A stretch of 64,000 bases of DNA from Limisphaerales bacterium (GTDB lineage: Bacteria; Verrucomicrobiota; Verrucomicrobiia; Limisphaerales; AAA164-E04), in NCBI GenBank assembly GCA_024761205.1, contig JAMASS010000007.1, positions 62,001-126,000 on the forward strand, read 5' to 3'. The notes under the pieces were generated by a model. It searched no databases and was not told the origin of the DNA. It worked only from the letters and a program-made list of their open reading frames with translations. Shown piece by piece: positions 25,547-27,383 of this stretch (position 1 is the stretch's first letter; each line of letters begins with the position of its first letter). Position numbers and translations under genes: made by a program.

Positions 25547-25689
25547 AAGGGGATTTGACAGGAGATAATAGGAAACAGAAAAGGAAAAATAGAAAGAAAT
25601 CTCCATTATCGATGCTAGGTCGCAGTTCAAAAAAAAAGAAAGGCGACATGGCGCCCGGCTGAGCAATCAATGCGATACTTGGTGGAAGA

Positions 25690-26480
25690 TACATGCGATT
25701 GATTTCGGGAACATCACGAGACCGCCAAGGTCTCAGACAACGGCTTCCCCTCCGAGAGAAGGCCCAATTCTGGGGGGTATCCCGCTCGCTGAAACAGGGC
25801 TTAACGGCCCCCAAGGAGAGGGTCCCTTGTGGCAGGCATGAAAGACGAATGGCCGAAAGGACGGGCAAGCATTTCGGCGGCAACGCCTTTGGACGCCGGG
25901 TGCGACTGAAAGCTGCCGAGGCGCCGCCTATCGGTCCCGAACGGGGCACCCCGCCGAAAAAGCGCGAACCACCCGGGCGGTCCCTCCAAGCGGGCGCCGA
26001 GCGCGCCCTCCTGGTGGTGCGGAGAGCGCTTCTTGGCACTCCACTGGCAAGCCGCCCCCTTGCCGCAGGAGCGCTGGCGCTGAAAAAAGCCGCTGGGATA
26101 GGCTGTGGCGAAAGCAGGGTCCAATGGCTCGCCAAGCGTCCGCTCTATGAAGAGCGCGCGCCAGACGGCAAAAGCGGGACTAACGGCACAAGGCGACGCT
26201 CCCTCTCGAAAAGGCTCGGGGGCCTGCCAGGGCAAACGCTGGGAAGAGGATCACCAAGCAGGGAAAACCCCCCGGAAACGGATTCGTGGAGAACAACGGC
26301 GACGCCCGCGCCCGCGAGGAGCAGGCAATTGTCTGTTTGGCCGGACGCCAAGGCAGCCCCTCGGGCTGGACACGGCCATGCTGATTCAAAAGCCCGGGGC
26401 AATCCTGGAGACTCCCCTTGGGGGAGGCGAGGGCATTCCTTGGCTGAATGCCGGTGGGCGCAATGACCGCTGGGATCCCC
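25690..26480. other. GC-rich, stop-poor block with no recognisable protein
   Basis: Base composition jumps here relative to both flanks, and stops are rare in several frames on both strands, giving overlapping frames of about 120-260 codons. None reads like a protein: the products are rich in Arg, Gly, Pro and Ala without hydrophobic patterning. Short inverted repeats such as GAGACC-GCCAA-GGTCTC (about 25,718-25,736) occur. The block lies between the end of the giant gene and a decayed oxidoreductase. It could be a structured RNA, a foreign segment, or a very old relic. Confidence 0.5.
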
Positions 26481-26538
26481 TTTTCTCGCCCCGCTCCAAA
26501 TCATCGCGCTTTCCAAAAATTGAGCTGCTCCCTATCCG

Positions 26539-27105
26539 TTACCTCTTGTTCAAAAATTCATACCACCGATTCCCAACCCGGTCGATATTCCCTAGCCCAT
26601 AGGCCTCTGCTTTGGGATTGTCGATAATCTGTTTCTTTTCCGAGTCGAAGTAGACTCTGCTTGCCCGTGCGGGTAGACGATGTTACCCAAGTGACACATC
26701 AAGGTGTTTTTCTGGTCGATCTCAATCTCTGAGTTGAGGGTTTCACTTGACCGGATGCAGTCGAAGAAGTTTTGCATGTGGCTCCGATTGCTGTCTTCCC
26801 CGGATTGGCTGGCGATTTTGTTTCCTTGAATATCCATGACGCGGTGCTGCCCCCCGAGATGGCAAGTATGCTTTTGGTGCCATAGAATCGCACGAAGTCT
26901 TGTTTCTCGTCGCGTTGAGGAATAGCTACTGCATTTCCAGAAAGTGCCTTTGTTGCCAAAATCATAGGCAAGTGTTCCTGGTCATCGTCGAAGTGAAAGC
27001 GCTATCCGTTGTAGGTCACTCGCAAGGGGTGTTTGATGTCGAGCCTCCACAGCGACAGATATCCAGGGACGTGGATGCTATTGTTTCTTGGGGAAAATCT
27101 GCTTA
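26539..27105 (-). pseudogene. Broken Gfo/Idh/MocA-family oxidoreductase (C-terminal part)
   Basis: Minus-strand pieces give FVRFYGTKSILAISGG, SNRSHMQNFFDCIRSSETLNS and EIEIDQKNTLMCHLGNIVY, then, after a frame change, KKQIIDNPKAEAYG...VGNRWYEFLNKR with a stop at 26,539-26,541. This is the usual end of secreted NAD(P)-dependent Gfo/Idh/MocA oxidoreductases that are abundant in verrucomicrobia and planctomycetes. The Rossmann half is missing and there are at least two shifts. The family acts on sugars and inositols. Confidence 0.75.
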
Positions 27106-27137: not shown

Positions 27138-27383
27138 TCACCGAAAACAGCAAAGTTCAGGGATTAAATCAGAGTTTCCTTCGTTCATCATTGCCCAGTG
27201 CCAGTTGTTAATGAACAAGATTATCTTTTGAAAGATCGTCCTCGAAAGCACGTTGAAGCTGCTGCGGCAGACATGGCAATTCCACCGCTCAATCTTTTGC
27301 AACTCCCGCTTGCGGGACACCTCTTTGCTTTGGCAAAGCGGACATTTCATTCCAACCCGTTAGCCTCTAAATCCTAATTGCGT
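27138..27383 (-). mobile_element. Truncated IS1595-like transposase remnant, second copy
   Basis: Starting at 27,350 the minus strand encodes MKCPLCQSKEVSRKREL, QKIERWNCHVCRSSFNVLSRTIFQK: a four-cysteine zinc ribbon and the first helix of an IS1595-type transposase. Homology to the element at 3,400 stops there, and the next residues are unrelated. The outer end carries the same repeat (complement of AATTAGGATTTAGAGGCT) at 27,362-27,383, just upstream of the start. No matching second end is seen. It sits 70 bp from the tRNA-Gly gene. Confidence 0.75.

Follow-up and report, generated by a model that had tools for sequence, protein, structure and literature searches.

The block at positions 25690-26480 of the window (the whole stretch of 64,000 nucleotides that was analysed) is one of about 29 scattered copies of a non-coding repeat in one bacterial genome, and is not a gene. 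Very probably it is a copy of a family of non-autonomous, MITE-like DNA transposons with terminal inverted repeats. This reading is based on the sharp ends that the copies have in common, their inverted repeats, the lack of a coding signal, deletion variants, near-identical pairs and a second repeat that shares the same ends; the transposase and the movement itself we infer. The repeat is GC-rich, longer than the bacterial MITEs that have been described and without a convincing target-site duplication in its 15 two-ended copies, hence the term MITE-like instead of MITE.

Composition and extent of the block

A sequence-only reading of this stretch had pointed to a GC-rich, stop-poor block that is open in several frames, and this description holds. 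The GC content of the block is 64.9% compared to 53.4% for the whole window, and its six frames contain 20 stops, where 791-bp windows average 50.2 (sd 8.9). As few stops were counted in only 2 of 1265 such windows (taken in steps of 50 bases), both of which lie on the block. The GC maximum among the 791-bp windows (65.5%) is found at start 25706, and among windows with starts below 24801 or above 27301 none is as GC-rich as the block. Open frames of 257 aa (+) and 144 aa (-) are present, together with others, and the + strand is poor in T (13%, with 22% A).

The location had also been given correctly, though with limits that are slightly short. Similarity to the other copies spans 25618-26537 according to BLAST, and the end motifs place the ends at approximately 25618 and 26532. 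The recurrence of the block and its inverted ends were invisible to that reading, and its interpretation is partly supported.

Copies across the genome

Comparing the block and its edges with its own genome yields at least 49 BLAST matches, which can be grouped into at least 28 loci including the window copy (a lower bound, based on the scoring of 40 of 54 candidates). One further short locus (C15:83143-83377) was found through the end patterns, giving about 29 copies in total. Similarity among the loci cuts off sharply at the edges and the flanks are otherwise unrelated; other short common stretches occur elsewhere at 11 of the 28 loci, each matching one or two other loci. Many dispersed copies with unrelated flanks, here 28 loci by DNA search and the additional one, are a feature of MITEs. 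Outside the genome, 57 relatives were searched with at most eight candidates scored in each, and no more than two matches emerged, one 28 and one 33 bases long.

The window copy is the longest of the 29 (915 bp, 63% GC over the whole element), the others ranging from a fragment of 68 bp up to about 800 bp. BLAST matches to it go down to 71% identity. Among 26 copies the pairwise identity is 78.5-99.5% with a median of 85%, as calculated from the 75 of 325 pairs with a score of at least 250. Three pairs are nearly identical, at 99.5% (L015/L016), 99.2% and 98.7%. Four copies are situated at contig ends (the starts of C6 and C69, the ends of C29 and C20) and make up the latter two pairs; they may stem from a smaller number of insertions that were split in two. 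Probably the repeat breaks the assembly, which consists of 92 contigs.

Ends and layout of the element

The whole element extends from 25618 to 26532 (+, 915 bp), as determined from the BLAST limits against 27 other loci, the end motifs and base counts in the flanks; its orientation was set by the A-rich 5' end. The 5' terminal repeat (25618-25646, +; alignment A1) reads GGTC-GCAGTTCAAAAAAAAAGAAAGGCGA, with family consensus GGCY-GCGGTTCAAAAAGAGGAAGGTGA. The 3' terminal repeat (26508-26532, -; alignment A2) is inverted with respect to the 5' end and reads GGGAGCAGCTCAATTTTTGGAAAGC as reverse complement, the family consensus being GGGCGCAGTTCAATTTTTGGAAAGC. Imperfect inverted ends are common to the copies (GGCYGCGGTTCAAAAAGAGGAA at the 5' end, TTTCCAAAAATTGAACTGCGCCC at the 3' end) and represent a terminal inverted repeat of about 25 bp, GGCYGCGGTTCAAAAAGAGGAA / GGGCGCAGTTCAATTTTTGGAAA. 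From the GCRGTTC/GAACTGC core, conservation extends outwards for four more bases, after which base counts are near-random (23 five-prime and 21 three-prime ends). A conserved subterminal palindrome, AATCAATGCG / GCGATTGATT, is located at 25665-25704 (+) and corresponds to helix 4 of alignment A1, where nine pairs are paired in 98.1% of the cells and five of them are invariant.

Internally, the element consists of a 5' module (25622-25917, +; alignment A1, 12 chosen copies), a central module (25918-26255, +) and a 3' module (26256-26528, +; alignment A2, 10 chosen copies). Both alignments were motif-trimmed and draw on the 28 loci (12 for the 5' and 10 for the 3' module); L016, a near-duplicate of L015, and L027, a candidate for the 3' set, were left out. 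The copies have the 5' and 3' modules in common, and their interiors are mosaic: the central module is present in few copies; in others it is lost through large deletions, or a second central sequence takes its place. With a 590-base query containing this second centre, 31 matches were obtained in the own genome.

In the own genome, the 5' consensus core occurs at 17 places with at most three mismatches, all belonging to this family (reversed control: 0); the 5' end of the window copy is too diverged to be counted among them. For the 3' end pattern 26 places were found at the same number of mismatches (reversed control: 0), 20 of them in the large family, four in a short sister repeat and two unassigned. 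A 12-base end pattern gave 12 places against one for the reversed control; at C15:73929 and C34:164422, two of these places, no element was visible by eye. Among 320 genomes of the order, own genome included, three others have one match each, with one mismatch. A wider genome collection contains two single matches lacking an extended partner end upstream, and viral contigs contain six matches that lie in an identical context of 120 bases and therefore represent one viral sequence; no partner end was seen among the viral matches listed. Both collections may omit the own genome and those near to it.

Target-site duplications and the short sister repeat

A target-site duplication is usual for MITEs, though not universal. 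In the large family none of the 15 two-ended copies reaches a match of 7/8 between its flanks (offsets 2-6), against 3 of 210 cross-pairings, and the mean number of matches is 3.87 compared to 4.11 for the cross-pairings. Even L015 and L016, which are 99.5% identical, are without a duplication. An exact-word search returned flank repeats of only 5-6 bases, in L013, L019, L032 and the short repeat L038. Taken over fixed offsets and defined ends, no convincing target-site duplication was found.

The short sister repeat is present at five loci and has the same ends with a different interior. The three copies with both ends measure 93, 126 and 153 bp. Their 8-bp flanks match at 7/8 directly at the ends in C73, at 7/8 two bases off in C16 and at 1/8 in C81. 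Because two of the three two-ended sister copies reach 7/8, duplications in the large family may have been lost through decay or exchange; exchange or conversion between copies would, hypothetically, explain their absence. That the short repeat shares only its ends with the large family points to one transposase serving both. At L045:825-2832 (G000 C73) a 644-aa frame ends in the 93-bp repeat, which gives it the last residues and the stop (AQFNY*).

Search for a mobilising transposase

A transposase from another element would recognise the ends GGGCGCAGTTCA and move whatever lies between them. The element supplying it would now be lost or absent from the assembly, and recombination and conversion among copies would later have produced the mosaics. 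The GC-rich, T-poor interior would then be cargo, and its openness in several frames a by-product of composition. Given the four copies at contig ends (C6, C20, C29 and C69), the assembly may lack part of the family, perhaps including its parent.

The domain search of the own genome covered four types of transposase: IS1595 (PF12762), IS4/IS5, IS256 and IS1182. No match was obtained for IS256- and IS1182-type domains, and for the IS4/IS5 type a single decayed one under the cut-off. IS1595-family domains were found at 46 places, mostly fragmentary. These elements are dispersed in the same genome, like the repeat, but differ from it in their ends: of 12 loci fetched from the 46 places, eight have readable ends, which begin GGGAATTACATACTTGAT / GGGAATTAC or similar and all differ from GGGCGCAGTTCA, so that IS1595 was rejected as the mobiliser. 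Scattered 11-base end matches (at most two mismatches) bracket no transposase. Nor do the end-pattern places in the own genome lead to a transposase, and none of the flanking genes at five loci looked transposase-like by eye.

Two side observations concern the IS1595 family itself. Its transposases and fragments (such as L048-L059) carry related ends of at least three kinds: GGGAATTACATACTTGAT, GGGAATTACTTACTTGACTAG and GGGATTTATTTACTTAGCTAG. In addition, L045:4772-5374 (-) holds a 200-aa frame with DETYFSGK, which we take to resemble an IS1595/ISXO2-type transposase; this frame is absent from the 46 PF12762 places.

Several points stand against the MITE-like reading: the 15 two-ended copies have no target-site duplication, no transposase with these ends was found (among four domain types and eight IS1595 ends), the element is GC-rich and up to 915 bp long, and contig ends truncate two of the three near-identical pairs. 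An unlikely alternative is that the long, GC-rich, genome-private family with inverted ends spreads without target-site duplications, either moved by an undescribed recombinase or through exchange of copies between sites, and that its 3' half carries a domain, of structured RNA or single-stranded DNA, that movement requires.

Structured RNA

The block is probably not a large RNA, although a large structured RNA was among the explanations offered for it. Rfam is silent, the folding energies of the modules do not go beyond those of shuffled sequences and covariation is weak, which together make this explanation unlikely. At the gathering threshold Rfam reports only a tRNA within the window, outside the block; permissive settings add three matches (E 1.8-4.9) to pieces of human lncRNA, far under threshold. 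A nucleotide search did supply homologues, from the own genome, and folding and covariation analysis of these gave no consistent conserved structure.

Folding of whole copies gives mixed z values, from +1.3 to -3.3 (nine copies, 12-30 shuffles). The window copy itself scores -0.41 on the + strand and -1.7 on the - strand. Per module the means are close to zero: -0.11 (+) and -0.21 (-) for the 5' module (12 copies), -0.60 (+) and -0.30 (-) for the 3' module (10 copies), with 60 shuffles each. The RNAalifold covariation terms of the two module alignments are unfavourable (+1.06 and +0.65). In the 5' module 10 cells show two-sided changes, compared to 5.6 in shuffles (17 of 500 as high), but the remaining four covariation measures are unremarkable (66, 71, 230 and 54 of 500 shuffles). 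A faint signal is seen in the 3' module, where two-sided changes affect seven pairs, compared to 3.2 in shuffles (a value matched in 8 of 500), and the covariation score is reached by 1 of 500; four of five measures stand out here (1, 8, 2 and 1 of 500), the fifth being at 74 of 500. These figures have to be read with the caveat that the structures were drawn from the same alignments and that kinship of the copies inflates the scores. Membership of a structured RNA family is thus backed by neither a covariance model match nor consistent covariation, apart from the weak signal in the 3' module.

The same results bear on another idea, a structured non-coding RNA (or a mobile element based on RNA) that is present in many copies and would owe its composition to A-rich loops and GC helices. 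The excess of A over T in all eight copies counted (T 13-17%, A 20-23%) is in line with it, as are the two-sided changes in both modules, the covariation score of the 3' module and the + strand z values of the long copies L015 (-2.7), L018 (-3.3) and L019 (-2.9; 12 shuffles each). Nevertheless we consider it very unlikely, given the sub-threshold Rfam matches, the module means, the window copy's + strand value, the other 5' measures and the RNAalifold terms; furthermore, inverted DNA ends are a feature of transposons, and the interiors are freely deleted. The large bacterial non-coding RNAs in Rfam are likewise long, GC-rich and protein-free with an A-rich strand, whereas the repeat has neither an Rfam match at gathering score nor a consistent fold.

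Coding potential

That the block is free of protein had been claimed as well, and a Pfam scan bears this out: none of the five frames scanned in the block reaches the cut-off (best E 0.34), nor do three frames beside it (eight frames in total, window copy only). Comparison of the copies leads to the same result. Only 16% of 1067 indels (75 non-independent pairs, 26 copies) are multiples of three, from which it follows that the repeat is non-coding. Between L017 and L018, which are 95.5% alike, three out of four gaps break the frame. When mismatches are sorted by codon position, six pairs reveal no consistent bias; the most uneven counts are those of L015/L012 (26/40/28). With frame-breaking indels and no consistent codon-position bias among the copies, the earlier attribution of the open frames to composition is sustained; they are numerous because T is scarce on one strand. 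As is typical of MITEs, the repeat is non-coding and without a transposase, judged from Pfam for the window copy and from indels for 26 copies.

Could the copies derive from a protein-coding insertion sequence or gene that has decayed? Transposon-like ends and internal deletions would suit such an origin, and the mosaic interior could be the leftover of a longer parent. We nevertheless find it highly doubtful, in view of the five window-copy frames without a Pfam match above cut-off, the absence of a consistent codon-position bias in the six pairs and the mostly frame-breaking gaps between L017 and L018.

A relic under unusual mutation, also suggested before, is superfluous as an explanation, though many copies are indeed incomplete. 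The foreign high-GC segment came nearest among the three explanations offered, but a dispersed repeat with some 29 copies in the own genome is not a single import. As a reading of its own, one horizontally acquired segment is hardly conceivable: its GC content is 11.4 points over the window mean, but about 29 dispersed copies have precise ends in common, and plasmid and phage records, which may omit the own or very near genomes, contain no match at E 1e-5.

Comparison with known elements

The MITE-like family shares with bacterial MITEs (such as MITEAba12 with ISAba12 and RUP with IS630-Spn1) its non-coding nature, dispersal, terminal inverted repeats and presumed mobilisation in trans. It differs from them in being GC-rich, in its length of up to 915 bp, and in having neither a target-site duplication (15 copies) nor a parent that could be found. 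The literature describes bacterial MITEs as AT-rich and approximately 50-600 bp long (PMC6382973), against 915 bp and 63% GC here. It likewise mentions bacterial elements under 200 bp, with YPAL/RU-2 as an exception to AT-richness (PMC2229807), and reports target-site duplications for 40% of the 90 copies of MITEAba12 (PMC6382973).

In the listed titles and opening lines of abstracts on MITEs and repeats in Verrucomicrobia/Verrucomicrobiota, and on MITE definitions, the repeat is not described. Apparently it constitutes a new GC-rich MITE-like family that is private to this genome, ordinary in kind and unusual in form, mainly because of its length and GC-richness. A GC-rich, stop-poor block that is open in several frames can therefore be a non-coding repeat of mobile type, a pitfall both in gene calling and in the search for new RNAs. 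The family has about 29 members, and two types of repeat have their ends in common; it could be used to seek the missing transposase and the cause of the absent target duplications.

Frames beside the element

Two further regions of the window were noted downstream of the element. At 26592-26971 (-) there are broken, frameshifted frames without a Pfam match at E up to 1, which are presumably similar to the C-terminus of a Gfo/Idh/MocA oxidoreductase. At 27138-27350 (-) a 70-aa frame shows a zinc-ribbon-like CPLC...CHVC pattern (InsA zinc ribbon, E 0.0047, below the cut-off) and could be what remains of the N-terminus of an IS transposase.
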